Assembly (NCBI GenBank): GCA_950295325.1
Contig: OX485803.1
Coordinates: forward strand, 8,000,001 to 8,064,000
Source of the DNA: Polytrichum commune
Taxonomy: Eukaryota > Streptophyta > Polytrichopsida > Polytrichales > Polytrichaceae
Direction: 5' to 3'
Length of the DNA: 64,000 nucleotides
Positions 18,769 through 52,115 of this stretch are shown here, piece after piece; within the stretch, counting starts at the first letter, position 1; the number at the start of each line of letters is the position of its first letter. The notes under the pieces are model-generated. The model saw only the letters and a program-made list of their open reading frames with translations, had not been told where the DNA came from and did no database searches. Position numbers and translations under genes: made by a program.

Positions 18769-21700
18769 CTACCTAAAATAGCTACTTTTTTTCCAATTCC
18801 ACTCAATGTGGAGATTGTTTCTCCTACAAAGAACATTCCTAGCCCCCCAAGTTTTGTCAAACCCTTGGAGCAATGCCAACGCCGAGAAAGCACTAATCTT
18901 GATATTCTTGAGCACTCGTTCCCATGCCGTCTTGGCGTAGAGTATAAGTTCGTCCCAAACGTGGTGTTTGAGTCGTGTTTCATGCCATTGTTCTTGGTTG
19001 AAGACCCTATCATTCCGTTCAATCCAAATGGCCCAAAGCGTGATGCCCCTAAGAAGGTGCCAAATTTTAATTTTGGGACCATACTTCTTGGGGAGTCTTT
19101 TCCCAAAGAGAGCTTGTTTCCAATTAAAACAATCATAGTTGCCCGTTCTCACCCCACAAAGTTCTTGCATAATGTAGGTGGCCCACCTCCACGCTCTCCT
19201 AGCTTGGATGCAATCCCAAAACTTGTGTTTAACCGATTCACTAGTATTGGGGAGACAAAAAATGCATTGTTTTGAGATGGATGCCTGGGCAATCCGTGCC
19301 CTCCATTCATTAACCGCGACCGCCTTATGCCAAATCGACCAAATGAAAGCCGCTTCCTTGCCGGAACGGTTCGAGTCCCACACTCGAGACCATTGGAATC
19401 TATAGTTGCCCGGTAGATAGCCTTGCCACTTGTCCGCCACCCGGGATGAGCCTTGACTTCTACTAGTAAGAATGTCTCTTCCTTTCTTAGTGGTGTAATC
19501 TAGAAACCGGCCCCCGTCTCCCCACCTCCACCTATCCGGGTCCCAAGAAAGAGTGGCCACTTTCCCGTAGAAGAAAATAACCTCTTCCCTCACTTCTTCT
19601 CCTTCTTTTTTAGCTCCCCTATTGGTGTAAATAATTTTGACCTCGTGGAAGTAACCTTCAATCTCTCCTTACGGATGTTCCCATTCTCTAAGGCATCTAG
19701 AGTAGGTGCCGACGGTAAAACATTTGGATGGAATGGGTAAGGTCAAAGTATAGAGTTGGAAGCAAGGGGGGGTAAACTCCGACTCGCATCTTACCACTAG
19801 CGTGGGGTCCTCCTTGCCCATCTCATATAGTCCAAGCCACATTCCGGGGTGGGTGTCATCCAAGTCATCTTCAAGCTTCCCTCTCCACTCCTCCGAGAGC
19901 TTACTCGTAATTCCCTCCCAATCACGCTCGTCGGTTGGTTTGAGTTGGAACTTCTCTTGTGCTTCGGCCCAAGTTAGGAATTCTTTTTTACCATTGTCCC
20001 ACACATCGTCCACGCTCCTAATGCCTTGGCGGTAGAGCTCCAAGCCCTTAGTATATGAGAAGCCCTTTTTGAGTAGCTCGACCCCATCCGACCACCAAAT
20101 GTTAGAGTGTAGAAGCTCCATCCTAGTTCGTGGCGGGAGTTGGTAAATGCTCTTTGACATGCATTTCCATGCCTTACTAATGTGGCCCCACACTTTAGAC
20201 CCGGAGAACCCTTGATGTTGTTTGCTAGTGAACCATTCAAGGTCCACTCCCCAACTCCGTCCTCTTTGTGGGTTAAATCTTGCAAGCCTATACCTTAGCA
20301 TGATTTGGAGGTTGGATTCTCCGGGTTCCATTGCTTTGACTATCCACTTACATAAGAGGCTAGTTTTAGCCTCTTCCGGGTCCACAAGGCCCAACCCTCC
20401 ATATTTCTTCTTTCTACAACACTCTTGCCAACTAACCCTAGTCCGAGTTAGTTGCTCCTTGCCGGACCACATGTAATTCCTAATTGCCCCCCGAATTTTC
20501 CTTAAGATCTTATTGGACCCTCCCCATACCGTGATAAAGAACCATAGTGTTGAGAGTAACACTTGGTTACATATTACAATTCTACCGGCTAGGGTTAACT
20601 TCATACCACTCCAATACTCTAACTTCTTTTTTATTTTGTTATAAAGAAATTGGTCAATATTTCTAGTGTTGAGATTTAGACCAAAGGGTGTACCTAGCAA
20701 TTTGGAGAGGTCGCCTTCCTCCGCCCACTTCCAATTGTAGCCGAGGAGCCAATCCGGCTCGTGAGTGTATTTGTCGAACCAATAGGCGCTCGACTTCTCC
20801 CAATTGATCTCCATTCCGGATGCCTTGCTAAATGTTTCAAGCAACCTCACAAGCTCGTCTACGTCCTCTTTGGTGCCTCTTACCATGAATGAGGAATCAT
20901 CCGCATATTGGGATATGCTTTGTTGCTTCTTCCCCCCGGGTAGGTAAACTCCTTTGAGTCTACCCTCCGCCACCGCCTTTTTTATTACGTGGGTAAGAAT
21001 CTCACCCACGATTAGGAAAAGGTAGGGGGCTAGTGGACACCCTTGTCTCACTCCTCTTTCAATTTTGAAGTTCCCCCCGGGATTACCATTAAGGTTAACC
21101 GCCGCGGATGCATGGGTGAAAGTAGTTTTATCCATCTTATGAACACCTCATCTATATTCATAGCCTTCATTGCACAAAAGAGAAAGTGCCAAGACTCCCT
21201 GTCATATGCTTTAGAGAAGTCTAGTTTTAGGAAAATTGAGGGTTGCTTAGAAGCTTTGGCCCAATGAAGGGTCTATTGGGTAAGAACAATATTATCTAGT
21301 ATAAACCTAAGAGGTAAAAACGCCGTTTGCTCCGGGCTAATGACGTCCCTTAACATGGGTTGGAGTCTAATTTGAAGAGTCTTGGCAAAGATTTTATAGA
21401 TCACCGTAAGGAGGGTGATTGGCCTCCAATAGTTGAGGTCTTTGGCATCCCCCTCCTTAGGTATTAGACTAATCAACCCTCTTGTAACCCCCTCATGTAG
21501 TTTCCCCTCATCCATGCTTTGCAAAATCATTTGGTGGAAGTCCTTACCAATAGTTGGCCATATCTTTTGGTAGAACTCTACCGGGATGCCGTCATGTCCC
21601 GGCGCCTTGCCCTTAGCCATTGAATTTACCGCACCCCTTAGCTCCCTTTCCGTAACCTCCTTAACTAGCGCCTCGTTCATGGCGGGGGTAAATGTAACCG

Positions 21701-23034
21701 GTACCCCCTCCATCACTTCTAGAAGTGCCTCCTCCTCAATGTCTCTATGTCTATATAGGTCTTGGTAAAAATCTTGGCAAATTCTACCTAGGTCCCCATT
21801 TTTGGTAAAAATTCGACCATGCTTGTCCTTGAGTTCCGTAATTACCATATGTGTATTTTTTTGGCGTACGGATTTAAAAAAACTCTTTGGAGCATCTATT
21901 ACCTACTTGTTGCCATTTGACCCTAGATCTAATGGCGGCCCCTATAGCTTTCCTAGTTTCTATGTTATCTATGATATTCTTAAGTCTATTTACCTCCCCT
22001 TGTTTCTCAAAGCTATTGACATCCTCATGTAGGTTGGCTATAGCTACTTCTAGCTTGGCCTTTGTGTCTAGCTCTAGTCTCTTATTCTCCTTTGCTTTTT
22101 GCTTGCACGCTTGTCTATAGAATCTTGAGATGTTTCTTAGTTTGTGGAAGAAGTTGGCATCCTCCGGTAAGCTCACCCACCTATCCTTTAGTTTCTCCCT
22201 AAGCTCTCCCTTAAGGTGTGCCGTATTCCACTTAAATGGCCCTTTCCGTTCTTCTCCACTACCAATATTTACCTCTAAGTGAACCGGAGCATGGTCCAAT
22301 CCTACGGTGTATCCGTGGATAAAGTAGGAGGTAATACGAGTATTGAGTTGACTTTGGAATGGTGTGTAGAATCTATCTAGCCTAGCTAGTCTCCTTCTAA
22401 CTCCCTTTTGCCCGTTGTCCCAAGTAAATCGTGGGCCCCCTTGGTGTAAGAATGCATCCCTAACTTGTAAGGAATTTAAAAATTCCTTCCACGTGTAACT
22501 CTCCAAGTCGCTAATGGTTCTCCCACATCCGTGTGACTTGTCCTCCGGTCTTTCGGTCATGTTGAAGTCGCCCCCAATAATCCACTCGCAATCCTTGGGG
22601 AGCGCGTCTAATAATATATGCCATAAATGTCTTCTTTCCGTAGGTATATTAGGTGCGTATACACAAGCTAGCCCAATATTCCCCCCTTCCACTCCTTCCA
22701 ATTTGATCCACACTACCCTATTTTCATATAGGGCCCCGGTAGCCGTAACAAGCTTAGCATATTTACTAGCTAGTAAAATGCCTACTCCGCCTTTCCCGGC
22801 GGCATTAGGGTTAAGCCAACTCCTTTCACCCGGAGCGGCTTCCAAAACCCAACTAGCACATCCGGGCAAAAGTCTTGATCCTATATTCTCCAAGGCTCTT
22901 CCTCTAAGTTTGTGCTCTTGGATCATTACCACCTCCACTTTTGGTACTATCATGCTAAGGAAACCTCTCTCTTTTGCAATACTCTCCGGATCATTTAGAC
23001 CCCTAATATTGTGTGTAATTAGATTCCACTTCAT
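18769..23034 (-). pseudogene. L1 ORF2 (APE endonuclease and reverse transcriptase), four breaks
   Basis: About 1420 codons. The frame starts at 23034 with an APE-type endonuclease: THNIRGLND, QEHKL, GGDFNM and DHAPV are the active-site motifs in order. It breaks at an A7 run (21876-21882), where one extra base shifts the frame. The reverse transcriptase follows (KGKAPGHDGIPVEFY, RPITLL, LKLDFSKAYD, GVRQGCPLAPYLF, and the catalytic QYADD at about 20910-20896), with a TAG at 21273-21275 and a second frameshift near 21131. A TAA at 19669-19671 precedes the C-terminal region, which contains the cysteine-histidine segment CIFCLPNTSESVKHKFWDC typical of plant L1 elements. It would nick target DNA and copy the element RNA by target-primed reverse transcription. 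Dead in this copy. Confidence 0.9.
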
Positions 23035-23077
23035 AGACCAAGATTTTGAAAAACTTTGATCGTCCTCCTTTCACCCT

Positions 23078-25675
23078 TTAGTGAGAATTGGTATCTACCC
23101 CCCATAGTCTTCCTTGTCTTGGGGTGATAATGTGCTTCCCAAGGGCTATAAGGCTAGATGCACTATTCCGGATAGGTGTATTAGTCAATGATGCATCTTG
23201 GACATGTTCTCTATTCTCCCCTCCTCTAGTCTCCGTGGATGTGTTGGGGCTATCTAGGCCAATGCTTGCCATTATATCTCTATACATGCTTCCCTTATGA
23301 GTGGTTTTAGGGATTGGTTGTGTCTCCCAAACTACATCCATTGGTCTATTAGTATGTGGACCCTCGTCATCCGGGTATGAACTACCAATACGGTCTATTT
23401 CGTTGTTGAGGTAGGAGTCCGACCACTTACCGAGTCTCGGGGCCTTGTTGATAGCACGGTGGTTGGTTGGTTCAATCTCCCACGTCTGTTTTTCCCATAT
23501 ATTTGCCTCCGTGTAGGTCAGTTTGTTGTGGGATTCTCCATTCCATCTCCCCTGCCTCTGCCCCTTAGAGCTTTCTGTTGGCCCCTTGCCCCTTAGTTCC
23601 TCTGCTGTGCCGGCTGGGTTGCCGTTGTCCGCTTCCTCGGCCGGTACCGCTCCCCCTAGAAGCTCTTGTAGGGGTTCACTGGTTAGCCGTTGGTTTGCCG
23701 GGTTTCGAGGGGCCACCTGCCCCTGCCACGTTGCGAGCTCTGCCTCAGTTGGTTCTTCGCAGTCCCCTCCTTTGTCTCCTTCCTTTCTCTCTTCTGTCCC
23801 GTCCCTCTCCTTGCTCGTTCGCCTCTGTTCTCCTCTCAGGCCACTGCCGGGCAGACCTTCCTCTCCTTCTAGCTGGTCGCTCTAGGGTATCCTCTCTCCT
23901 TCGGCTTCACTTCCTGTCCACTGCAGCTGTTCGGTGCAGCCAACTCTCACCTGCGATGATGCTGTAGCCTGTGGCTGTCTGTCTGCTCCCTGTTCTCTTT
24001 CCGGTACAGTTAGCCGGTTACTTTTTGGTGCTGGTGCTGCTATGGCCGCGGTCTCTTGGATCGGCATTTCCTTCCCTCCAGCCATCCCCTCTTCGATCTG
24101 CATCAGATCGTCGCTGCTTTGGTTCCTGATTACTCCCGGCCCCTCCTCCATTCTGTATGTTTCTTCCTCGGCTGCCTCTTCTCTGACATCCGGCTCTTCC
24201 TCCTCCGATTCTTCCTCCTCCGACTCTTCTTCCTCCGACTCTTCCTCCCCCGACTCTACCAGTTCTCCGCTTTCTAACGGCCTTTTTTGGCCTGCATGTT
24301 TTCTCGGCGACCAGAGCATCGTAGATGCTGGATCGTCTCTTCCTTCGACCGGTGTTTCAAGATCCTCTACTTGTTCTGTTTGCCCTACATCACCACCTGT
24401 CCTCGGCAGAGTCGCATCCCCGCTCGTAGTATCCGACCTCTGCCCTTCGACCTGGTTTTCGGTGTCTTGTGCCTTGCTGCCTCCAAGCCCTTCCTGGTTC
24501 CTCAGTGCTGGGTTTGTCCGAGCTGTTTGCTCTCCTCACCGTTGGCCGACCTCATCTCCCTGTGCATTAGATCGGAATCGTGCTGCTCTTGATTCTTCCG
24601 CCAGCGCGAATGCATTTGACCTCATTTCGTCATTAATGGTGTTGAATATGCTTCTTCTTGTATTTTTCCGATTTATGACTTGTTGAAAGCCGTCTTCATC
24701 AATTCTTATGCTCTTCCCTTTGCCTTGCTGATGTGTCTGTGGTACATGTGCTGATCTCCTTCCTCCCCTCACGGGTCTTTTCTGGACTTCATTGCAATCC
24801 CTCACCCGGTGCTTCCAGCTATGACATGCCTTGCACCGCATTGGCAGTTTATCATAGTCAACTAGGACTTTTTGCGCTGGGTATGATCCATCCTCCGTTT
24901 CTAGCTCAATGCTTGTCACCCAGCCTTTGTTAACCATGAGATTCACACAAAACCTCGGATCTCTTGCCGCTTCGTTTGATGTGTCAATGCCAATCACCTC
25001 TCCTAACGTTTGTGCTATGGCTATTGCTTGATCATGGTGTTCATATGGTAGTCTCCTCAAGGCAACCCAAGTGGGAAATGCAAGGTTGCTAGGGTTATCC
25101 GGATTGAATCCGGGTACCCAGCTTTGGATCATGCATGTTCCCCATTTTGACTTGTAAGGTGACAACATAAGTGCTCTATTGAGTGCATCCGAGTCCTCTC
25201 CTTTGAGGAAGAAGTAACCCTTGCCCACATTCATGCAAAACGTTAAAACACTATCTCCTATCTTTTGATTGAGGGCTTGCAACCACCGATCCATATCTTG
25301 GAAGGTGGGTTTTGGGCCTACAAACTTTGCAATCACTAGTTGCTCCTTCAATAAGGCAATGCGTGCATTCACCTTTACTGGATCCACTTTAAAAGTAATA
25401 GCATCCTTCCTAACCAAGAACCCACTAAAGTTCTTCTCAAGATTTGTTGGGAGAATCTCACCAACTTGTTCCCTAAATGGGTTGAGCTGTCCTTCATGGA
25501 CATGGCTACTTGCTTGGGCAAGAACTTCAATCACAGCCTCCGCCATTTCTTCATCTCGCCTTGGATCTTCCCCCGCTACCCATCCACCTTTTTCTTCCAG
25601 CATTGGGTCAAATCTTGGTCCTCCGCCGAATCTAACCTTTTCTGCAAACATTTTCACCTGCTGGACTTCTCCCAT
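23078..25675 (-). pseudogene. L1 ORF1 (RNA-binding protein with CCHC knuckle), two stops
   Basis: One frame of about 865 codons from ATG at 25675, interrupted by TGA at 24536-24538 and TAG at 23882-23884; I read the frame across both breaks without finding another stop. The N-terminal ~300 residues resemble the DUF4283-type nucleic-acid-binding region of plant LINE ORF1 proteins (GKGYFFLKGEDSDALNRALM, RLPYEHHD). A zinc knuckle follows: CKACHSWKHRVRDC, exactly CX2CX4HX4C. The second half is low complexity, with a very acidic run of Glu and Ser around 24240-24180. In related elements ORF1 binds the element RNA to form the ribonucleoprotein. The TGA sits where a CGA arginine codon would be expected, consistent with C-to-T decay. 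Confidence 0.88.
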
Positions 25676-26451
25676 CGCTACAGAGTTTGGTAACTACTGT
25701 TGCACACCTTCCGTTGTGTTTCGTAAATCTGCTGGATCCAAAGCTAACCTCAAATCGCGATCTGGTAACTACTTCAGATTGCTCAGATCCGTTGTTCGTT
25801 TGTCTACTGTCTAATCAAGATTACGTCTAAGCTCTAACACATCATCACAAACAGTCCTATCCTCGCATCAAGGCACAGATCTCGAGGGCATCTGCGCCTC
25901 GCTTCCGTTTCCTAGAGCGGGCCATCGCTCCTCCCCACCGGCACATAGTAGTGTCTTGTTTTAGGGTTTTCAAGAGGCTCCTCAACTTACACAATAAACA
26001 CCTGAAAATAGGCCCATACAAAATGAATACTATGTGTTGTGGGCCAGATGCCTGTTTTAGTCTCCGAAAAACTCTTAATTTCTTTTGACGAATAGGCGGA
26101 CCCCGATTCTCTCATCCAAAAACAAGCAGACCAGCTCTGACCCTAAACCCTGGCCTTGTGTATTATGCCCCGGAATTCAAGAGCCTTACTTTGCGTTTCC
26201 ATGGGTTTGTGTGAATAGTGCACTCAAAATCTGTCAAAAACACCAGCTTACTTTACGGATAACTCAATTGTATACAGAAGTCATAAATTTGCAATAAATT
26301 TTTAATAATGATATCTATTGGTTTAAAAAGATCCCACCACAAAGTATGAATTTGTGAATGTATAAAATCTAAATATTGGCGCAGGTTGCATTGCAACAAA
26401 TTCTTGCATGACCAATGATAAGTTGACCATCTATTCTGCCCATTTTACATT

Positions 26452-33487: not shown

Positions 33488-33540
33488 TTTGAAAATAGGC
33501 AATTGTTGTTTCACAGAGAGAAAAAGAGAGAGAAAAACTT

Positions 33541-33558
33541 CGGTCTCCGAAGAGACCG
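33541..33558 (-). other. 3'-terminal UUCG-type hairpin of the retroelement
   Basis: On the element strand CGGTCTC-TTCG-GAGACCG is a perfect 7-bp stem with a UUCG tetraloop, 25 bases before the element's 3' end. The end itself is a pyrimidine-rich (CTCTCTTTTT)-type tail instead of poly-A. Such hairpins can be the recognition signal for the element's own reverse transcriptase. Confidence 0.7.
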
Positions 33559-33842
33559 ACGTGAATGAAGTGTCTGTTCGATCCTCCTCCAATCCGATGC
33601 CCACATGACAAAGGTATGGAGGTGAAGATCTACTCCTCCCTTTCGAGAGTAGACACTATAGTCACCAGTCACTAGTAACACGAACCAAAATGGTTAGTTA
33701 TTAGGGGGGGGGTGTTAGTATAATTTGGGTCGCCATGTTTATAGTTCATTATTAGTGGATGGGGTGGAGTAGCTTAGTTGTTAAGGTTTTATGGCTTTAT
33801 CTAAGGGGGGTCTAGTGTTTGGGGTAGTGGTTGATGGTTTTA

Positions 33843-34260
33843 TATTCTTCTTTTGTGTAGGAGGATAGTCATGGCATATTTTATAGCGATAGTATTGATG
33901 TTTTTAAAGGTATTTTTAATGGTAGACATAGGTATTTTAAATTTATTTTCAAGTGATTTCATTGAAGGAATGTGTGTAGTGGCTCTAGCACCAGCGGTGA
34001 TTATAATAAGGGGGTCAACTTTCCATCCTCTAGCAGCAATACTATCAATTAATGGTTTGTACTTGTTATTTTTTGCTTCAAGTGTTTCTGGAGAGAATCT
34101 ATCATTACAGTATGTAAATTCGAGGAATTGTATGGTGAGGTTGGGGTCCAAGTCTGTGGGGGGGTCATTTTGGTATGGTAATCCTCTAACACAGAGGATG
34201 TCAGGTCTAAATTTGGAGTTACAATGGCATCTTTGTGTACCGCATGTGCAAGGGAGTAGC
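33843..34260 (-). other. C-terminal zinc-like and PD-(D/E)xK-like nuclease segment
   Basis: After the RNase H and a CPIC...H...C zinc motif (near 34475), the frame continues beyond TAG 34260 with CTCGTQRCHC, then FRPDILCVRG, and after about 20 residues IQFLEFTYCND. RPD followed by E-x-T resembles the PD-(D/E)xK active site of restriction-like endonucleases in R2-type and Dualen elements. Then come GWKVDPLIIITAGARATTHI and a helical tail ending HKRRI. The mapping of catalytic residues is inference. Confidence 0.55.
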
Positions 34261-34849
34261 TAGTTGGGAACGGTGTTTTCCTGGGGTGTATTATTGAAAG
34301 TACCAGCATTCATGAGAGTATAACATCTAGATTTCTCAGATGAGATTAGTAGTTTCCTAATTTCCCATACTGCTTTGTTGTGTCTTTTGACGTGGAGTGA
34401 ATGTATATGTTGTTGTTTACACGTAAGTAGTACATGTAACCACGTGTCCGGTTCGTATAAGGTGCAGATGGGGCATGTAATAGAGGGATATGTTTGTCTA
34501 CCGAAGAACAATTGTTTTCGAGCATTGCCCATATAGGTTCCTGTTCGGAATTTGATGAGGCATGATTTTTGTTTATCCGTGACTTCCGGGTTTTCCCAAA
34601 ATTCGTTAGAAAGTTCTTTATCTATATCTGCATTTCCTGTCCATTTGTAAGTGTTGGGGGTTTGTGTGGCCATGTTTTCCAAGTTGTTTTCCCTATCGTA
34701 TTTAATAATTTGTTTTTCTAGGAATCTAACGGGGCCTTTATCAGGAACGTCCGTCATTGAAGCCCAAATGTCCTTTTGGTAGTAGTATGGGGTGGCATGA
34801 GCATGTTCATATGGATGAATGGCAATTATGTGCTCTAGTTCTAGCCCTT

Positions 34850-35260
34850 CTTTTGCCAATTTGTCTGCTTGTTCGTTGCCGTCAATGTTGACGTGTGCTC
34901 TAACTTTGTATAGTGTGATTGGTTGTGTCCGGTTTTGAAGTAGTTGTACCATGGTGGCGAGGGTAGTTTGGTCGGGGTGGCTATTGTGAAGTGTGGGGTG
35001 TTTAATTTGTGTGTTGAATAAGTGTAATACGTTTAGACTATCGGTAAATATGTATGCGGGTTCGTTTGGGTATAGTGTATTAATGGTTGTTAGTGTTTCA
35101 TGTATTGCTATCATTTCTGCTCGTAGTATGTTTTGGTGTCCATATAGTCTTTTGGAGATGTTAAGGCCCTTGGGGCTGTAGATTCCATAGCCGGCTCTTT
35201 CTCTTCTCCATACTCCAGGGTTAATTTCTTTGGGTTTCATGAAAGAGCCGTCTGTGTAGT
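34850..35260 (-). other. RNase H domain of the retroelement
   Basis: YYTDGSFM, LRAEMIAIHETL, YIFTDSLNVL and HVNIDGNEQADKLAKEG carry the catalytic D-E-D-D set in order with normal spacing. It is intact in this copy. Confidence 0.9.
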
Positions 35261-35569
35261 AGTTGAATTGAGGGTGGAATTTTAGTGGTAAGTTAGTTTG
35301 GTAATCTGGGAGTTGTGGAATAGGTGTGTTATTATTAACGGGTGTGTTTGGGTAGTTAGATTTAGCCCATTTTTTGCTAGGGTTAACGGCGGTATTCACG
35401 GGGGTAGGTGATGCAATTTGTGTGTGAATTTGTGATATTTGGAGATTATTTACTATGTTGGTGAGTTGATTCATTTGTTCGTAGGTACCGATGTGATTGT
35501 TTTGGTGGTGGATACAGAATATTCGTAATGTTGATAATTCTTTCCTCGTGATATTGAGTTCGGGGGGGA

Positions 35570-35830
35570 TTGTGGGTTCTTCGTATATGATGGTGTCTGC
35601 TGCAAAGTGGGCAATGATGTGTGTGTCCGAGAATGGGCTAGTATATGGGTTAAAATTGTGGTACCAATCCATATCTTTTGAAATAAGTATAGTGATTGTA
35701 TCTGGATCGTTTTTGGCCGCAATGCGGGCCCAATGGATGGCTTGTTGTAAGTTTGTTGCGTTATGGGGGTGGGCGTAACCAATTCCCTTCCATTTTTGGT
35801 CAAACGCTTTTCCTAGGGATCCAAATATTC
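35570..35830 (-). other. Possible Dam/N6A-methyltransferase-like segment
   Basis: Between RT and RNase H the frame reads RIFGSLGKAFDQKWKGIGYA, then HPHNATNLQQAIHWARIAAK and ITILISKDMDWYHN. The order W-x-G, aromatic-x-x-P, helix with WxxxA, then a hydrophobic strand and D-W-Y-H resembles the Dam-type methyltransferase fold found in DIRS elements and phages, but the usual NPPY is replaced by YAHP. This is by-eye similarity only. Confidence 0.35.
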
Positions 35831-37399
35831 TATCCCTGGAGAATGGTGAGTGAAATTGGGTGAATTGTATGGGGCAGGTAACTGGGGATGAGAAGTATGA
35901 ATGGTTGATATTGAAGGATGTTATTAGGAAGTCTAGTATTGGAGTTGGTATTGTGTATTGGGCACGTTTAAGTGGATCGTTTTTTGGAATGCGGTATTTA
36001 TACCTTTGGTATAGCCACACGATTTCTGTTTCAAATGACTGGGTAGGTGGTTCTAGACTATATGGGGTATTTTTAGCTTGATGGTATTGTTTCCATAACC
36101 ACAGTAATCTAGTTTTTGAGATGGTAATGAGGTGCCGACCGTTGTCTTCTTATATGTGAGCGACGTCGAATTGTGTTTGGATAGTGTTAGTATTTGTTTC
36201 GATGTCACTCTCTGGATTGCATTCATTAATGGAGATATGTGCCAATGGGATAATTGTGGCAGGGATAACGTATCTAGTGTCTCGTTGTTGTTCTATGGAG
36301 AAGTATGCATTGATGATGTTTGAAAAGTGTTTGTGTTGTCTTTTTGTATAATATTGGGTAAGTAGTTCGGTGTTGTGACGACTAGTATATGCGTCACAAT
36401 AGGGGAATAAATCTCTTTGGGTGTGCCATTTGTTGTATATATTATTATTTGGGGTGATCCATTGGCATAGATATGGTGTGTCTTTTCTTTGTATCCCATT
36501 AGAATCTGTGAGTTGTCGTTGTTTGTGGTCAAGTATTGTGTGTATGGGAAATTTACGGGGGTTTTTAAGCATATTATTGGGAGGTGGGGGTAGATGGGGG
36601 GCCGGGGGGTTCGGGGGGTGTATAGGGGGAGTCGGGTGTTGAGGGAGAATGTTGTGGTTTATTATTGTATAATTATTTTTTAGGGTTCGTGTAGGATAGT
36701 GGTCTGGGCATGGGAGTGGACATTCTTGGTGACAGGAGGGGTGGCAGAATAATTGGTTTGCGATGTTTAATGCACTCTTTATGAGTTTTGTAGGGTTGGA
36801 GTGGTATATTTTAAATTCATCTGGGTTCATTAAGGTGACACCGTTGGGCATGGTTATTTGTTCTAATTTTATTATATTATGCAATAGAAGTTTTTATAAT
36901 AGTTTAAGTGAAGTGTTGGGATTTAGGCCCTGTAGGTTTTGTGCTTCTTTCAACCATACGGTTTTGAGTGGGGACGGATTTAATAGAAATGTATCTATTG
37001 TGCTTTTTAGGTGGACTCCAACTTCATGTTTGAGTAGGAATAACGTTCTGGTGATAGGTGATCTAACGCAATGGTGGTATTTAATGCGGGTTATTTCTTT
37101 GGAGCCTCCAAATTTAGCTAGTATAAATTGTATTAAGCCATAATAGATTTTACCAAGTCTACCTTTATCATTGAGGGCGTTTTGTAGTTGTTCTCCAATA
37201 CAGCGCAAGTAGGCATTTTGTAGTGAGAATGCTTCAATTCCGAATAGATCGTGTGGAGGTTGTGTAGCAATATTAGATGTACATTTCGGTAATCCGCATA
37301 TTGTCTTGTGGAGTGCTATAATTTTTTTGTCGAGTTTTTTGATGGCCGGAATAGAATATGGTACTGCGTAAAAGCTATAGGCTATTCCAGCACGTATGA

Positions 37400-38692
37400 C
37401 TGTGTCTGCCATGTTGATTTTTGCTTCATGGTGGCTGGGCATGCTACGAGGGCTTGACATTGTTTGATAATTTTTGCTGTAATGGTGTTTATTTGTGTTT
37501 CCCATTTAAGTGAAGGTGCGAGGTTTATTCCAAGATAAGTGTATGGTTCGTGTTGGTTTAAAACTGGAATTGTGTGGTTTCTATAATTTATATTAGTAGA
37601 TTGGATCAAGGCTTTGAATGTTATGGGATTCATTTTTTATTTATTAGGACATCCGGTCACTGCGCATTTGGGTATTCCGAGGTCCATTCCTGCCCATCCG
37701 CAGAATTTGTCTAATTTATTTAGTTGTACTTGTAATGATTTTAGTTTGTTAGCAATGGCTGCCAAATCATCTGCATATGCTGCGGATGTAATTTTCTCTT
37801 TAGATGTTCCGAAGGTGTATCCATTATCACCTTGGTGTAACCATCTAAGGAGGGGTTCTAAAAATATTATAAATAAATATGGGCTGAGAGTGTCTCCTTG
37901 TATTGTACCTCTTTGAATGGGAATAGGAAGGGTTTTACCAAAGTGTTCTCCCATAAATATGGTAGATGTTTGTGAGTATATGTTCCCGACGACATTTATG
38001 GCGTCAGTTGGATAGCCCAGGTCCTTCATTATGGCTAAAAGTCTTGCATGGTCAATGGAGCCGAAGGCATTTTTGAAGTCAATGTAGAGGATGTATATAT
38101 CTTGGTTCGTAAGTCTAGCATCTTCTAATGCTGCAATGAGGAGTTGAAGTTGTCTAGATGTTTCTCTTTCAGTTCTAAATCCTTCTTGGTTGTCATGCAA
38201 TATTTGGTATCTTTCCCCATAAGCTGAAAGGATAGATGTTAGTGTGCTTGTGTATAATTTATATATGGTGTTAGCTAGTGCGATAGGTCTGTGGTTGGTA
38301 AGTTGTGACGAGTCACCTTTCTTATATAGTAAGATTGTTAAACTGGTTTTCTACAATGCGGGAATTTGCTTTTGTTTGTAGCAGTGTTTGAAGAATAAAT
38401 AGAGTAGTTTGTGAAATCGTAGGGGCATGTTTTTTAAAATTGAATTAGGAATTTTGTCAGGGCCCGGAGCTTTGTTGTTGCTTAGGTTTTTAAGGCAGAA
38501 GTCGTATGTTTCTTGGTCAAAGTATGTGTGCAGGGGAATTTGGGGTTCACCACGTTGATCGATTGTAAATCCTTCTAGGTCGTGCCATGGGTATTGCCTA
38601 ACACCACACGTGTAGTATGGTAGGTGAATATTATGATAGTGACATGTGGGTACTGTTGGGCGGTTACTGATGGATTGTTGGATGTGTATTTC
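37400..38692 (-). other. Reverse transcriptase domain of the retroelement
   Basis: Fingers motif KAPGPDKIPN, then LLYKKGDSSQLTNHRPIAL, catalytic YIDFKNAFGSID, RGTIQGDTLSPYLF and YADDLAAI. Two stops (38693 and 38351) precede the catalytic core; a frameshift follows it at 37418-37422. Confidence 0.9.
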
Positions 38693-39439
38693 TTATGCAA
38701 TGTCTTCCGGGCTAGTCATGATATTATTTTGTCTATCCGTGATGGAGTCTAGGGGGAAGGTTTCGGAGTGTTTGAAGACTTTCCTATTTATCTTTTTGGG
38801 GTTTTTTTCATACATTTGTCGGTATTTTGATACAGCTTTTAGAATACAGTCTTTGGTATATTTTGTGGTGATTTTTCTGGCTTCTTTATTAGCGGTTTTT
38901 GCGATGGCAGCTATGGTGTTTATCCATTTATTTGGAGGAGTGGTTGTTGTGAGTGGGTGTGGGATTAACACATTTTGGTGATTTCGAATTTCATTTAGGA
39001 TAGGGTGAGTTTGCCAGTGTGGGTTGTTTTTTGCAATGTATATAGTTTTTCTAATAAGGTGATATGTTTCAAGATATTTTTTCCATTTTTTTGATAGTTT
39101 TCGTGGCAGGAAGTCACCTTGCTGTGCAGTTTTGTTCGTGAGGGATGGTATTGGGGTTGCTTTGCAGGTTTTTTCAATGGTTTCAGAGGTTTTCTCTACA
39201 ATATTGTCTAGTGTTTCACAGGCTTCTTGCCATTGATAAGGGTTGAGGTGGTTGTGGTCCTCTAGTAATTTGGTTCGTTCGTTTAGTTGCGTGGAGTATG
39301 TTTCAAAAAATTCTATATTGAATTTTTCTAAGTTTTCCGGAGGGATTGGATTTAGTATTTTGGATGGTGTGATATTCGTGGGGAGTAGGGGTCTAGCTAT
39401 AAGTGTGTTTTGGGGTATGTGCAGAGTGACTGGGTAGTG

Positions 39440-40174
39440 GTCTGAGTTTAGATTCATGTTTGTGTTTGTTGTGGAGGTGAATCTATTATTGTCTAGTGAG
39501 TTGATATAGAAGCCGTCTATAAGGCTAGTTGATGTGTAATTATAGCCTCATTGTCTAGAGAGTATAGTGTCCGTAGGTATATATTCTAAATTGAGGGTTG
39601 TGGTGAAGTTTTTCCATTGTATGTCTTCTTATTGTGGAGGTGTGTTATTGTTATGGTTTTGTCTACCAGTGAGTGCAATGTCTCGGTTAAAATCACCACA
39701 TAGGATGTGCATGTGGTTTGGATGGGCAATGATTTGATTAGTGATTGTCATTTTGAGGTACGGAATGAGGTGGATATCTTCTATGTGTGTGGGCATATAC
39801 ATGTGTATGATTAGCCATGGTAGGAGTAGATGATTGTTTATTTTTATTATTTGTAAGTATGGTGAGATGTTTGCTGGTGAAGGGATCTTGGTGACGTTTC
39901 CGGAAAATGCGTATTTGTTATGAATTAGTGTGAGTAAGCCACCTCTTCCGGGGGTGTAAGGCATTCTTTGTTGTATACATCTTGTGAGGGTGTGCGTGTT
40001 GTTAAAAATAAGTTTGTATTCAGGGAATAAATTTTGTATGTATTTTGTTGATTTAGTTGCTGTCAATTTGGTTTCTTGGATATTAATGATTGCAGTGTTT
40101 CTGAAGGAGTAGTTTATTAGGCTTTGTAGATTTGGTAAGGCTGTGTTAAGCGATGAGGCATTCCAAGTTATCAT
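39440..40174 (-). other. APE endonuclease domain of the retroelement
   Basis: The domain begins MITWNASSL, then NIQETKL (metal-binding Glu), CGDFNRD (Asp-Asn pair) and SDHYPV (catalytic Asp-His). These are the ordered active-site motifs of the APE/exonuclease III fold. Two stops lie inside (39629 and 39548). Confidence 0.88.
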
Positions 40175-40824
40175 GTTTGTTTCGTGGTTGATATTTATGA
40201 CGTTTCTTGGAGTTGGTGTAGGGGTGTTTGGAAGTGGAGGTGGGTGTGAGTATTTGATTATGTTTTCTAGGAATCGGAGAGATTCGGTTATTAATTTTTC
40301 TGGAAGATAGGGAAATTTTCTTTGGAGTGTGGCTGGAGTAGGTGGGGTTTCTTGGCTGTGGATGAATTCATATAGTTCAGTATGTATAGTATTTTTGGGG
40401 AGTATTATGTCTTGGTTATTTTCTACAAATGTAGTGTATGGATGTTGTGTTAGAATATGTCGTTCGGGGGGTTGTTAAGGTTGGCTAGCCTAATAATAAG
40501 CGTGTTGGTCCATATATTGTTAAAGTGGTGAATGTGTGGTTGGGCTAGTATATTGTTACATGTGTTTATTGAGGGGTTTATAGTGATGATTAAGGCGTAT
40601 AGTATGTGAGTTGGTGGAGAGTGTCTTTGTGTGTGGATGTATTGATGTAAGTATGTATACGTAGTGGTTGCTTGGTGATGTAGTGGATGATTATGTTTTA
40701 GTATGGGTGCAAATGTGGTAGCTATATGTTGAAATTCGGGTTGCAGTTTTATCGTATTTGGAATAAAATATTGTTTGGCTCTTTTTTTATGTGAAGCGGG
40801 ATGTGTATGTAAAATATCAGACAT

Positions 40825-40869
40825 TGGTCCGGGGTTGGGTTCTATATCTCCACATTTTAATAATGTTAG
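40825..40869 (-). other. 2A-like ribosome-skipping motif
   Basis: The codons just before the ATG at 40824 read LTLLKCGDIEPNPGP. This fits the 2A consensus D(V/I)ExNPG|P, preceded by the usual leucine-rich stretch. In known 2A sequences the peptide bond between the last Gly and Pro is skipped, separating the upstream peptide from the downstream protein. Here the release point is one residue before the methionine of the main ORF. Only about 22 codons of upstream frame remain inside the element. Confidence 0.88.
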
Positions 40870-40904
40870 TTTGTTAATAAAGTAGTACCCATTGTTGTTT
40901 CACA

Positions 40905-42763: not shown

Positions 42764-43353
42764 GGGCCACTTCACACTCAAGGTTGAAGACCCCTAACCA
42801 TGGCAATGTAAGAGCTCTCATTGGTCGAAAAGGCGAAGACCATCCAAGTTCACTTCACACTAGGAGGTGAAGGCCTATAGGCCCAAAGAAAAGTTCGTGG
42901 ATAAAAAGTCTACATGGAGTCCTACATGGCATGTCACGGATAAGGGTGCATGGTCTACTGGAATTTGCGTCATACCCACCTCCAAGAGGTGGGCATGACG
43001 CAAATTCCGGGAGACCATGACCTTTTTAATAATTTTCCCAGCATGACATTTTTCAGGACAGACTACAGGGCATATTCCAGAACAGATTCTAGGACAAACA
43101 AACACCACCAAGTAATTCTCTTGAATTGAGAAAGTTTGAGACATATTATATTGAACCAAATCCTCCCCTCTTTTTCCGCCAACAAAATATGCAATGGTCC
43201 CGTAACATGGTTCATTCTCACTTCACACTATGCTTGAGGGCCCAAGACTACATAAGATGGCTTTCCCAACACCCATGGTACAACCTTTGGATGAGAGTCA
43301 GGGGTCCTCACCATTACAAGGTCATGGCTCTTGGCTCATGTGTGAAGTGGCCC
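42764..43353. mobile_element. Nested PIF-type MITE with TTA duplication
   Basis: A 590-bp element whose ends are GGGCCACTTCACAC and its complement, with TTA at 42761-42763 and 43354-43356. Removing it with one TTA restores continuity of the outer element, as judged against the copy at 58730-59214. Inverted relative of 6957-7454. Confidence 0.85.
42949..43019. repeat. Near-perfect hairpin inside the nested MITE
   Basis: 34-base arms match at 31 positions around a 3-base loop (arms 42949-42982 and 42986-43019). Confidence 0.9.
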
Positions 43354-45359: not shown

Positions 45360-47200
45360 CTGGATTTCATCTATGTTTGTGTGTTTCCATGCTAACACAC
45401 AGTTCAAGAGTGAGGTAGGAAGTGATACTAACATTATTGTTTTTGGGACTTGGAAGTGCATTCAACTGTATAGAATGTTGAGATATCTATAGCTCATGAA
45501 GGCATGCTATTGCTTCCTCCACGCAAACCTGGCTTGGAACTCATCACCGATGCTGGTCAACGGAGTACAACCGGATCTGTTGGTGCATGTGATTCCAGTC
45601 CCTCGTCCATTTTCAATGTGTTTACAAAGTTTGAGAGTGGAGTGGGAAGTGATTGAGATTGTTGTTTTTTGTATCTGGAGTCGGAAGTGTATATATTCAA
45701 GTACATGGAATGTTGAGGTACCAACTTGGTGCATTCCAAGGTAAATGGATTTAACTAGCTTTGTACTGTGTTGGTGTGTTTCCAGTCCCTCGTCCATTTC
45801 CATGCGTTTACAAAGTTTGAGAGTGGGGTGGGAAGTGTTTGAGGTCAATGATCTTTTTGTATTTGAACCGAAAGTGTATTCAACTTTATAGAAAGTTGGG
45901 GTTTCTGTAGCTTCATGAAGGCACGATATTGCATCCACCATGCAAACCTGGCTTGGAACTTATCACCAACTTGGTACATGCTGGGGAATCGGAGTTACTA
46001 GATTTGTACTTTGTTGGTATGATTGCAGTCCCTTCTCATGTGTTTACAAAGTGTGAGAGTGGAATGGGAACTGGCTGAATATTTTTTGGGCTCTTTCTTT
46101 CCGGCAGCCATCCAACCCTGTGAATGACATGCTGTTGATATTCTTTCATATTATTAGGAGCTTGAGCACTGGTATCGTCAAGGTCGACTGAGAGAAATAG
46201 ATTCAAGGCAGCAATATCATGTCGAAAATCATGTCATGCCTTGAATCTACTCCTGTCAGTCGACCTTCACGATACCTGTGCTCAAGCTCCTAATAATATG
46301 AATCCTTAAAATGGTTCCCTTTTTTTTGGCATTTGTCACATTGTAGAATCTCATAGAGACAATGTCATTGTTTAAACCTCAATGATAACCAAGTCCTACA
46401 GAGTCCTTGGTTGCTCATAAGCCTGCGCATGCAGGTTTGTCGATCAATGCTCATGATAAACGGAGGTAACTGAATTTGTACTGTGTGGTTGTGTTTCTAG
46501 TCCTTCATCCTTTTCCATATGTTTACAAAATCTGAGGGTGGAGTGGGAAGTGATTTAGATGCTACTTTTCTGTATTTGGAGTTGAAAGTGCATTCAACTA
46601 TTGGGATATTATCTGTTCCTCATGAAGCCCTGATATTACATCCTCGACACAAACCTGTAAATCTACAGGTTTACAGGATTTGCAGGAGTTATTGAAGCCT
46701 TTTGAGTGAAACAATTCCGTATGACTCTTTCGTAACACTAAGGGACTGCTGAAATGAACTTCACAGCAAACTTTTGAAGGCACCTATAATACAGAGTATA
46801 TTTCAAATACCTCCCCTTCATATTACCAAAACTGGGGTTCCAACACCCCTTGAATATTATAAAATGTCGGAAATGGGCCAAAGCTCCAAACCGAACCAAG
46901 AGTTTTTAGAGACTTTTAGATAACTCTATTTTGTAAGTTTTTCCTAAAGTTTTACTCAAGCTCCCCTAATTCTATGTCATCATGCAGTGGAGCTGATCTT
47001 GAAGGCATGACATTACACTCTCGACAAAAACCTGTGAATCCACGGTTGGAATTTGAAGGTCTTGGTGGCAGTCATAAGAGTTGCAGGAGGGGCTAGCTGG
47101 TGATACACGGAGTAGCTGGATTTCTACAGTGTTGGTGTGTTTCCTTAACTTCATTACCAAATGCAATCCCTCATCCATTTCTAGAGAAGATGCAAGTGAT
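45360..47200. repeat. Degenerate tandem repeat upstream of GLOX
   Basis: A module recurs imperfectly. One landmark (CATGAAGGCA...GATATTGCATCC...AAACCTGGCTTGGAACT) is found near 45494, 45910, 46617 and 47002. Another (CCAGTCCCTCGTCCATTTCC...GTTTACAAAG) is found near 45588, 45775, 46025, 46495 and 47160. Spacing varies because of insertions and losses; the first two landmarks are 416 bp apart. A minus-strand frame of 144 codons at 45507-45941 is a by-product: its two halves repeat because the DNA repeats. Confidence 0.7.
46147..46300. ncRNA. Candidate miRNA-precursor-like hairpin
   Basis: Two 64-base arms (46147-46210 and 46237-46300) match at about 59 positions around a 26-base loop. Length, stem quality and loop fit a plant miRNA precursor, but a young inverted duplication is equally possible because it lies inside the tandem repeat. 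A diverged single arm seems to exist near 47265-47335. No known miRNA was recognised. Confidence 0.4.
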
Positions 47201-47767
47201 TGACATTTTTGTCACTGCCGATACGCATGTACAGAAAATTGTCCAGCACATTGTAAACAATTTTCTGTGATGTTCTTTGAGTTGATTAGCAACTTGACTA
47301 CTCCCATCGTGAAGGTGGACGGAACGAAGTAGGTTGTTAAGTGTTGTTCACGTAACAACAAGGGTTACGCATGCTTGGTACAGTTTAGACAACACTCTAT
47401 TTAAACAGGTTAGACAACGCTCTATTTAAACAGCTTAGAAACGCTTTCCAAGTCTATTCTCAACAAAGTGTGTTGTAAAAATTCTTAAAAAATATGTTCA
47501 TTATGAAAGATTCGTACATTACATATACAAATCTGATGCTTAATAAACCTTCTATGTTTGTTACTTTGTAACACTTTTACATAATGCTCCCCTTCTCTGT
47601 TATCATTGTTAAGACCCAAGTATGCTAGCCCTTTGGTCGAAACATACAGCCTAGACAAGTTAACACTTTAAGGTTAAGCAGAAATTTGGGTAAGCTACTT
47701 TCAACCTTAATGCTCATTCTTGAATTTGCTGTACTGATGCGAAAGTTCGATTTTCTGCAGGCTAACG

Positions 47768-50042
47768 ATGGCTCAAGTGATGATGAGATCAAGTGCCTTT
47801 GACATTCTATACTGTTGGATGGCGATACTCTTGACCATCACGATCAATAGCTTTTCTGCCCCAAGAGCAGTGGCAGTTGCCCAGCCGTTGGATTCCTGGA
47901 AGGTGGTGGTTCAAAATGCAGGCATATCCGCGATGCACATGGCAACCATGCACACAGACAAGGTGATCCTCTTCGATCGAACCAACTTCGGGAAGTCGCA
48001 AATTGCCCTCCCTAATGGCACGTGCCGCAACAACCCCAAGGAACTCGTACTCAAGCATGACTGCACCGCACACTCAGTGGAGTATGACTCCCTCACCAAT
48101 GCCATTCGTCCTCTGTTCCTCTACTCCGACACGCTATGTTCCTCCGGCGCCTTCCTGGTGGATGGTACACTACAGCAAAGCGGTGGTGACAATGAGGGCT
48201 CCAATGTTCTCCGGACCATCGGCACAGGACCCACCGATGATTGGGTGGAGAGCAACACCACTAGCCTCTTTGTCAAGCGTTGGTACAGCACAGACCAAAT
48301 CTTGCCCGACGGCCGGATCATCGTCGTTGGGGGCATCAACCAACATAACTATGAGTTCATCCCGAAACCCTCTGGCGCTAAGGGGCCAATCCAACTCGCT
48401 CTCTTGGCGTTGGCAAAAGGAGCCTCGAACCTCTACCCCTTCGTGCACCTCGTGCCCGATGGGAACCTCTTCATCTTCGCCAACGTCTACTCCATCCTCT
48501 TCAACTACAAGACCAACAGGGTGGGTACAATCATCACATGAGGAATGAGGGTTGGTTGAGTCTTCTTGTTGACATAAGGATTTGGGAAATTCCTCTACAC
48601 AGTTTTATGAGAAAAAAAACACAAAGATAGTAGGGACTCAACATCACAACAATATCGATTTGTGGAGTTTCATAAGGTAGCTCAACCCAACACAAGTCCA
48701 AACTTGTGACCACCTGAATGAAAAGATGGGCTTCATTTTAGACCGCAAATCTAGGACATCCAAGGATCGGTCATTTATGAGAGATCTAATGAATAGGAGA
48801 TCTTTGGTTGTCTTAGATTTGTGTTCTAAAATGAAGACATCTCATTCATTGGGGTGGTCACATATTCGGAGTTGGTGTTGAGTTGAGCTACCTTAATTGG
48901 TCGCTCATCTAGTGAAGAGCACTTCATACAAATTTTCTAGAGTTTTTATATCCATGTAGTTTCATTCTAAATCTTTAATTTACATTCATGAGCAGACCAA
49001 CTATGTCCCACACACAGCTTGAGTAGATGGATGTCGAGTTCCTCCCGCCCGTTATGTAGTGAATTGAAGTGTTTTGTAAATTGATAGGCTTTGGTGTGTG
49101 ACATGCTTGTCTTATTGTCCCTAGGTGGTCAAGACGTTTCCCAACCTTGGGACGGACCCGCGGAACTACCCATATTCAGGGACGTCCGTCATGTTGCCCC
49201 TCGAAGGAGCCAACAACTACACCAAAGTGGAGATCTTGATTTGCGGAGGTGCACCAACAGGCGCCGCCAGCCAAGTGACTAAACATATCTACATGACGTC
49301 TTTGACCAACTGCGGCCGCATGGAGATCACGGCTCCAAACCCAACATGGACCATGGAACAAATGCCCGGACCACGGGTAATGGGTGATGGCATCCTCATG
49401 CCTTCGCGACAGGTCCTTATCATTAATGGGTGCCAAGCAGGAGTGGCAGGCTGGGGCACAGACCGCACGCCCTCCCTAGCACCTTGGATTTACAATCCCT
49501 CAAACCACTCATTCCAAGTGCAATCGGCCACCACCATCCCCCGGGTGTACCACTCGTCTGTCAACATGCAATCGGACGGGACTGTTCTGGTAGGCGGGTC
49601 AAATGACCAACATGGCTATGTCTTCACGGGTGTCCGGTTCCCCACTGAGCTCCGCCTCGAGAAGTACAGCCCTTGGTACCTGAACTCCATTTACGACTCC
49701 CAGAGGCTCACCATCACCTCCCCCATCTCCACCACAGTGAAGCTCAACTCCAACTTTGTGGTCACATTCACCACTCCCTCTAACTCCACTGCCACAGCGG
49801 TGGAGATGAGCTTGTATTCCCCCACCTTCACTTCCCACTCCAACTCCATGAACCAAAGACTGCTAGCCCTGGTTACATCCACCAACATTACAGCCGTAGG
49901 AGGAAGCACGTGGCAAGTCAGTGTGGCGGCCCCTCCCAATGCAAACATTGCTCCTCCAGGATGGTACATGCTCACCGCATTGAATACTGGGACATTTCCA
50001 GCCATTCCTAGCAAGGCCACATGGGTGCAAATCACTACCTAA
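47768..50042 (+). CDS. GLOX: Aldehyde oxidase GLOX-like (secreted copper-radical oxidase), two exons
   Basis: Exons 47768-48520 and 49125-50042 (phase-0 intron, GT at 48521, AG at 49123-49124) give 556 aa. The enzyme family oxidises aldehydes such as glyoxal to acids, making H2O2 in the apoplast and cell wall. A signal peptide covers about residues 1-39. The galactose-oxidase-type copper site is complete: Cys124 (DTLCSSG) and Tyr173 (RWYST) can form the thioether cofactor, with Tyr393-His394 (RVYHSS) and His489 (TSHSNSMNQRLL). Repeated DG(R/T/N)-type beta-propeller turns run through residues 130-410, then a C-terminal Ig-like domain ends PPGWYM...IPSKATW. The coding sequence is GC-rich at third positions, unlike its surroundings. 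TTTTCTGCAG lies just before the ATG, so a 5' UTR intron is possible. AATAAA at 50214-50219 may be the poly-A signal. The intron carries a foldback element. A dead paralogue lies at 15767-17359. Confidence 0.95.
48674..48894. mobile_element. Foldback element in the GLOX intron
   Basis: Long imperfect inverted arms of about 95 bp: AAGGTAGCTCAACCCAACAC on the left and GTTGAGTTGAGCTACCTT on the right, with matching inner blocks around TCATTTTAGA / TCTAAAATGA. It lies wholly inside the intron and leaves both splice sites untouched. No clear target duplication. Confidence 0.75.
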
Positions 50043-50819: not shown

Positions 50820-52115
50820 AAATTACGTATTTTAATCGAACAAGAAGTATTTGCAAGTCATAGTCTCTATTCTTGTTTTGTTGATTGCAAAAAAGTTTTT
50901 GACACAATCCCACATGACAAGCTTTGGGCACGCTTCTAACAATTAGGTGCACCACCTCATTTACAACATATTGTAAAAGCCATGTACACCGTAGTCTATG
51001 CAAAAGTTTGAATAAATGGCAACACACATGGTGAAGTGATGTCCGACATTGGTGTTAAACAATGATGTCCTCTCTCTCTCACATTATTTGACATGTATAT
51101 TGATGAACTTGAAACATATTTATATGAGATCAACATGGACTTTCCGTGTTTATTTGCCATTCTTCTTTATGCTAACAATGTTGTTCTACTCTCTAAATTT
51201 GGAGTAGGCCTACAAAGACTTTTGTACAAGCTATATGAATTTTTCACTTCTTCTAGTATTGAAGTCACTTTATCTAAGACCAAAATCATGATATCTAGCT
51301 ACAACAAAAGGAAATCAAACCAAGAGGCAGTTTACCTAGGCAAGGACCCAATTGGGTTAAGTCATGAATACAAATACCTTGGGATTGATTACTATTCACA
51401 TGGATACTTGGAGCCATCTAGTAAAAGGCAAAGAATCACATGTATGAAAGCCTTGATGGGCACTTTAAGGAAAGAAATAATAGTCAGAGTCACATGTTGG
51501 GAACTCAAATCCCATCTATTCAAGGCTTTGGTGCTTCCAACTTTCACATGTAGCACTAAAATTTGGGGAGACGATTTGAACAACTCTCATTGGAAGGTTC
51601 TTGAGAAGGGCATGAAGATGCATATGATGTCTCACGTCAAAGTGTGTTCTTTGACAACTTATCAATTTTGTTGGCCAAATTTGGAGAACTTCCTATAGAA
51701 TTGCATGCTCTCAAGCTCACTATAGGTTTTCAACAATGGTTCACCCACATATCCCCCTCTTTGTTAGTCAATAAAGCAACCTCACTTTCCCAACACCTAG
51801 TTGAACATGGATTTAACACCTAATTGACAACCAATATGTGGAAGACATCATGGGGTCTATCTCACTGAGACACCCATGATAACCCAACCACGTCCAAAAT
51901 AACTTATGATGATATCAAGGAAGACTTTCTTGCTAAAGAGTGTAACTCTTTCCATCTCTCAAGGAAGAAACTAGATTACCTCCACCTCAAGGATTTTCTC
52001 AAATACGAATGTGAATTATACTTGAAGCAACCATTGACACCACCACAACGCGATATCATTGCCACTTACCACACCTCAAACCATAGATTAGCCATATCTA
52101 GATATATTGGCAGGT
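50820..52115 (+). pseudogene. Decayed LINE reverse transcriptase, third LINE type
   Basis: Reads with several stops through FVDCKKVFDTIPHDKLWARF, then GEVMSDIGVKQ-stop-CPLSLTLFDMYIDELE (the glycine of QGCPLSPTLF has become TGA). Next is LLYANNVVLLS, where the catalytic YADD has become YANN, then VTLSKTKIM and YLGIDY. A separate downstream piece (near 51990-52110) reads LTPPQRDIIATYHTSNHRLAI, typical of the C-terminus of these elements. The longest remaining frame is 51093-51698. Loss of the catalytic aspartates shows it is long inactive. The family differs from the two other LINEs here; its exact clade was not determined. Confidence 0.85.

Follow-up and report, generated by a model that had tools for sequence, protein, structure and literature searches.

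Our analysis indicates that an APE-type, RNase H-bearing non-LTR retrotransposon of the moss Polytrichum commune probably carries a StopGo (2A) recoding site inside its ORF2 polyprotein. Judged by its sequence, the site is likely to be functional: a ribosome would make the N-terminal ORF2 product and reach (L)LxCG-DIExNPG, the Gly-Pro bond would not be formed, and the upstream protein would be released. Translation would then resume at Pro and give a separate protein made up of a conserved N-terminal domain, the endonuclease, the reverse transcriptase (RT), a PCIF1-like segment, and RNase H. We infer that skipping takes place, how efficient it is, and what the upstream product does. In a related family of elements, several such sites follow one another in a single open frame.

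The window copy

The window is a stretch of 64,000 nucleotides of contig OX485803.1. Its minus strand encodes a 2A/StopGo-like peptide, LTLLKCGDIEPNPGP (40825-40869), with the core DIEPNPGP at 40825-40848, where the skip is predicted to fall between Gly and the final Pro. An ATG (40824-40822, minus strand) follows NPGP directly, and the peptide lies inside a 149-amino-acid (aa) frame at 40899-40450 of the same strand; the one plus-strand frame that was translated in this region showed nothing comparable. An earlier note, made from the DNA letters alone, had described a 2A-type core with a Leu-rich lead, in frame with a plant non-LTR polyprotein and directly before its ATG. Our results bear out this description, including the place before the ATG, and add the strand, which the note had not given.

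The downstream product begins with a conserved domain (M-S-D-I-L-H-T-H-P ... YFIPNTIKLQPEYQHI) at 40450-40824, as defined by an alignment of 20 copies from both families of the element (see below). It is followed on the minus strand by a frame with an APE-type endonuclease (39629-40474; PF03372, E value 3.4e-05, 24.1 bits, just below the cut-off of 24.5), an RT frame (37637-38350; PF00078, E value 7.7e-29), a PCIF1_WW-like segment (35781-36053; PF12237, E value 7.1e-10, 39.2 bits, cut-off 31.1), and an RNase H domain (34842-35267; PF00075, E value 4.1e-15). The relatives L045 and L040 have PF03372/PF14529 matches, and PF03372, which is just under the cut-off in the window and in L040, is above it in L045; PF00078 is matched in relatives as well as in the window. 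An APE endonuclease and an RT downstream of the 2A place the copy among 2A-bearing APE-type non-LTR elements.

The PCIF1_WW-like segment, located between RT and RNase H, is also present at L031:7938-8639, and PCIF1 in the PDB gave a further, weak match to it (E value 0.065). In the copies that were read, the stretch after FGSLG in this segment has AHPHN, where PCIF1 has a catalytic NPPF. Because AHPHN stands at this place, the segment may have a methyltransferase-like fold without the activity. A search of literature titles and abstracts returned no PCIF1 in retroelements.

The homology-covered part of the whole copy extends over 33525-40892 (minus strand). In a blastn comparison, it shows 78.2% identity to the joined L031/L039 stretch over 7,097 bp (40890-33802) and 72.6% in a second block of 157 bp (33679-33525). 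Homology to nine sister copies (L002, L004, L005, L006, L008, L031-L033, and L035) begins at 40890-40892, so that the part of ORF2 that precedes the 2A survives only as a remnant (40870-40892). The 5' truncation thus lies some 22 codons ahead of the skip site, and the broken frames make the window copy a dead relic of a decayed non-LTR retrotransposon. In-frame coding on both sides of the 2A is accordingly seen in its sister copies and not in the truncated window copy itself.

Other features of the window include a glyoxal oxidase gene in at least two frames (47738-50042, plus strand; PF07250 and PF09118), a plant L1 LINE with broken frames (18769-25693, minus strand; DUF4283 ORF1 and RT), and a fragment of another RT (51066-51698, plus strand; PF00078, 24.4 bits, under the cut-off). 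A near-perfect hairpin at 46145-46302 (arms of 66 nucleotides, 92% complementary, -104 kcal/mol, z -15.7) resembles plant miRNA precursors (MIR8643, 49.4 bits), far under the Rfam gathering score, and is possibly a MITE or a young miRNA gene. An inverted repeat lies at 42949-43019 (arms of 34 nucleotides, 91% complementary, loop of 3 nucleotides). In the genome as a whole, 28 NAM (NAC) matches, 14 per domain part, correspond to about 14 genes, with 0 matches in 14 control genomes, which marks the host as a land plant. The low number of NAC genes, together with seven large contigs among 64, points to a bryophyte, perhaps a moss.

Copies of the window type

We used the 149-aa peptide to search the same genome for copies of the window type (family A). 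All 150 scored candidates, out of 785 in all, matched the peptide, and 30 were fetched. Within each of the pairs L002/L003 and L008/L009, the two loci match in score and length and do not count as independent. The exact motif D(I/V)ExNPGP occurs in 26 of the 30 copies and NPGP in 28; the four without the exact motif have DIK (L004), DMK (L010), NPEP (L014), and NP followed by a stop (L029). The frame that reaches NPGP is open for at least 100 codons in 23 of the 28 copies, in two cases up to the edge of the fetched stretch, and because of this the 2A is internal to ORF2. The earlier note had made its reading depend on conservation of the motif in other copies and on an open frame upstream of it, and both are found here. 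Its proposal that a short leader peptide is released is rejected: the short leader is an artifact of the 5' truncation of the window copy, and in longer copies an ORF2 segment of 174 to 560 aa precedes the 2A (L031, 560 aa; L058, 297 aa; L044, 261 aa; L056, 174 aa; the starting Met was picked by similarity in each case).

Longer stretches of five selected copies show the organization of the element. ORF1 overlaps ORF2 in another frame in L031, L032, and L033, and the 2A lies 580 codons deep in the open ORF2 frame of L031 and 281 codons deep in that of L032, while L035 is truncated 5' of the 2A. L031 and L033 share 99.7% identity over 12,593 bp, and blastn reported no similarity between them upstream of their common start; they are, on this sequence evidence, recent insertions that arose independently, and the element, at 12.6 kb or more, is an unusually long LINE. 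L035 belongs to the same subfamily (99.66% identity over 6,819 bp). Copies are dispersed on all seven large contigs, and L035 and the window copy are 5'-truncated at different points, as is characteristic of non-LTR elements. As far as seen, family A copies have single 2A sites.

In L036, the sequence from 3394 into L031 constitutes the start of the full-length element, with repeats of about 250 bp near the 5' end, and in the twin copy L033/L038 the ORF1 frame is open from about the element start (1,400 aa). L034 differs in layout: the frame before the 2A region (L034:615-3280) is open for almost 900 codons and of low complexity, and it contains three copies of a module (NKMA(S/L)AYR(P/L)RH ...), of which only the last ends in a 2A-like sequence. 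Modules located before the 2A thus seem to undergo duplication.

The upstream ORF2 segment and two ORF1 frames have no Pfam match over the cut-off. Hydrophobic stretches near the ORF2 N terminus, for example in L031 (whose maximum is beaten by 4 of 300 shuffles), bring to mind sea-urchin NLR proteins, a precedent for dual targeting in the available text of PMC4981915: the unskipped product would go to the membrane by way of these stretches and the skipped product to the cytosol or nucleus. We regard such dual targeting as very unlikely for the moss element, as the hydrophobicity is clear in only one of five segments; the other four are not, or only weakly, unusual for their composition, with 57, 101, 19, and 119 of 300 shuffles reaching the maximum. 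The case for a membrane role of the upstream segment is weak.

Selection on the 2A frame

Among 29 copies, the 18 codons up to and including the final Pro have a pN/pS of 0.167 in frame, compared with 0.70 and 3.10 in the two alternative frames. The corresponding values are 0.206, 1.19, and 1.57 for the 97 downstream codons and 0.54, 1.14, and 0.91 for the 71 upstream codons. In-frame stops number 1 (2A), 4 (downstream), and 3 (upstream), compared with 39 to 186 out of frame; in the 29 x 71 upstream codons, the other frames have 144 and 127. The 2A frame is under purifying selection, and the upstream frame is coding and loosely constrained. These values come from copies anchored on a relaxed motif, which favors conserved sites (the count of 26 exact motifs in 30 copies is free of this effect), and exclude 7 of 36 sequences: the twins L003 and L009, the gapped L007, and L041, L042, L045, and L046 of another subfamily.

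Residue counts, which exclude 2 of the 36 sequences, show that D12, N16, and P19 are invariant in 34 copies, whereas I13 varies once, E14 three times (to K), P17 once, and G18 twice. Before D12, LxLL(K/Q)CG is found in most family A copies. According to the available text of PMC12846837, the StopGo core is (D/G/C/N)(V/I)ExNPGP, and Leu-rich contexts ending in (A/S/C)G accompany D12; the Leu-rich context ending in (C/S)G with D12 agrees with the active motifs 2/6 given there. Some observations count against a StopGo reading. (i) Three compared copies that are 99.7% identical have DIK. (ii) L034 has NLGP instead of NPGP within a 2,327-aa frame. (iii) The upstream frame is less constrained than the 2A and has no Pfam match over the cut-off.

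The pattern of constraint also bears on another explanation, in which re-initiation or internal entry at the ATG that follows NPGP would give the downstream protein, and the 2A would be just the translated end of the upstream frame. Met follows NPGP in 33 of 34 family A copies, as this explanation would have it. However, the upstream frame is kept open and constrained, constraint on the 2A peptide equals that on the downstream domain, and Leu or Pro follows NPGP in all eight family B sequences compared. Because of the last observation, initiation at a Met after NPGP, where the earlier note had placed the start of the main ORF, is rejected as a general rule, and we hold this explanation to be improbable.

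Genome-wide counts and variants of position 14

A genome-wide search (407.8 Mb) with degenerate DNA for D(I/V)ExNPGP gave 268 matches and none when read backwards; the reversed peptide likewise had 0 matches genome-wide. With position 14 (p14) left free, D(I/V)xxNPGP gave 451 sites, compared with 4 in the control. Although the core alone is short, a chance or compositional match is rejected on these controls and on the protein-level constraint that exists alongside synonymous change; its probability is close to nil. Both DIEPNPGP in the window and the 268 exact sites conform to the published core. In 10 of 10 stretches fetched beyond the homology list, the start of the downstream domain follows the site, as MPN(I/V/L)L or L(S/T)(T/Q/H)IL, and for this reason these stretches are retroelements of the same kind and not host genes. 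Every locus that was read among the 451 sites is a retroelement of the 2A-bearing kind.

By residue at p14, the 451 sites consist of 268 E, 85 Q, 69 H, and 21 K, with 8 others by subtraction. The DNA variant encoding DIKPNPGP is common to five copies, including the near-identical L031, L033, and L035, and the DIK subfamily has spread recently. If Lys at p14 abolishes skipping, then separation of the products is not needed for mobility. Taken with the numbers of DIQ, DIH, and DIK sites and with NLGP in the long open frame of L034, this subfamily raises the possibility that the 2A is ancestral and partly dispensable, and that some lineages drift by way of DIQ, DIH, and DIK and tolerate a fused polyprotein. 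Such drift appears unlikely to us, if less so than re-initiation. Three copies of equal score with a 2,625-aa frame have the canonical DIEPNPGP, and p14 is E, Q, H, or K in 443 of the 451 sites; moreover, in the portions of PMC12846837 that deal with p14, His retains over 95% activity in its native context and E14Q is cited with 56% or 26% activity. Under a StopGo mechanism, skipping would be expected to be efficient at DIE and DIH sites and leaky at DIQ sites.

Family B and tandem sites

In the domain that follows the 2A, family B is 27 to 32% identical to family A. No 8-mer is more similar between the two families than the core octapeptide (83%, with a median of 28%; it ranks 1 of 232, level with the overlapping 8-mer that starts one residue earlier), and the stretch further upstream averages 14%; this comparison used 20 sequences with an unbroken stretch from 2A to endonuclease, anchored on the relaxed motif, which favors conserved sites. 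Family B contexts are Leu-rich and end in (S/C/G/H)G, and not all of them match the published motif.

Tandem sites, which were not part of the earlier note, occur in six fetched frames, each with at least two sites in one open frame, as in a multi-2A polyprotein: L040, L054, L056, and L058 have two sites, L059 has three, and L044 has four (DIQ, DIE, DIY, and DIH). The second site of L057 reads NPGA, and L041 has an upstream site that has decayed to DTETNLGP. The two sites of L058 share their frame with an ORF1-like sequence, which may reflect a local indel because the overlapping ORF1 and ORF2 of other copies are in different frames.

Among the 350 matches listed (85 Q, 69 H, and 196 of the 268 E sites), 61 neighboring same-strand pairs lie within 1,500 bp, of which 51 are in phase, with a spacing divisible by three, and there are no neighboring pairs on opposite strands. 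After spacings within 5 bp are merged, 24 of 26 classes among the matches listed are in phase. At least 54 arrays are present among these matches, with Q first in 41 and H last in 45; many are copies of one another and do not represent 54 independent events. Because the K sites were left out, as were E sites including the GATATA and valine forms, arrays are undercounted.

We tentatively propose that, in this plant lineage of LINE-type elements, the polyprotein yields several products through tandem StopGo sites that differ in strength. DIQ, a leaky site, would come first and DIH (or DIE), an efficient one, last, and selection would maintain the series for the ratio that it sets between separate and fused products. 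This is a possibility well short of probable, and decay, rather than tuning, may account for the DIQ sites. If the proposal is true, serial and tuned StopGo would have a natural cellular role in a plant.

Significance

StopGo is common in RNA viruses and rare in cellular genes, and it works in plants, yet no natural use has been found in plant viruses, as stated in the available text of PMC12846837. The natural p14 series (E, Q, H, and K) and the tandem arrays make it testable whether selection tunes StopGo strength, and the same sites let the separation of LINE proteins be tested. Skipping peptides native to plants may also find use in plant vectors. In our view, the tandem variant sites most deserve to be pursued.

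Relationship to known systems

The plant L1 LINE of the window is, like the 2A element, an APE-type LINE with an RT in the same genome. Unlike that L1, whose RT has L1 ORF2p as its best match (1.4e-16; R2, 0.0019), the 2A element has an RT that best matches R2 (1.2e-25; L1, 1.3e-13), and the DUF4283 of the L1 ORF1 was absent from the two 2A-element ORF1 frames scanned with Pfam. In this comparison among solved structures, the 2A element does not group with the plant L1 clade.

Sea-urchin NLR proteins with an N-terminal 2A likewise have StopGo in a cellular genome; their 2A serves host genes as a short signal sequence at the N terminus, whereas the moss 2A is internal to a retroelement polyprotein (PMC4981915, in the text available). 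Picornaviruses with several 2A-NPGP sites similarly carry more than one NPGP site per polyprotein, as far as described in the accessible part of PMC11512398, but they are viruses and not cellular mobile elements, and the likeness is one of layout, with no homology claimed. Rao 2025, as told in PMC12846837, also screened cellular proteomes, and plants may be among them. In the titles and abstracts of the open-licence literature searched, neither a plant retroelement with a 2A nor a non-LTR element with several 2As was found. Single internal 2As in non-LTR elements are already known, and what may be new is a plant lineage with tandem variant sites. Earlier 2A-bearing non-LTR elements have, to our knowledge, one 2A only.

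The earlier note had also referred to 2As in trypanosome and sea-urchin elements, which agrees with the record and extends to further species: 2As are reported in L1Tc of Trypanosoma cruzi (Heras 2006) and in APE-type elements of multicellular organisms, sea urchin among them (Odon 2013), both as related in the available portions of PMC4981915 and PMC5972666, and the 2As of non-LTR elements sit at internal protein sites (PMC4981915). Compared with the elements described there, the moss element is similar in being APE-type and in having an in-frame D(V/I)ExNPGP. It differs from them in its land-plant host, in the long ORF2 segment before the 2A, in its PCIF1-like segment, and in having a related family whose frames can hold two to four sites each, with the p14 variants in a common order.
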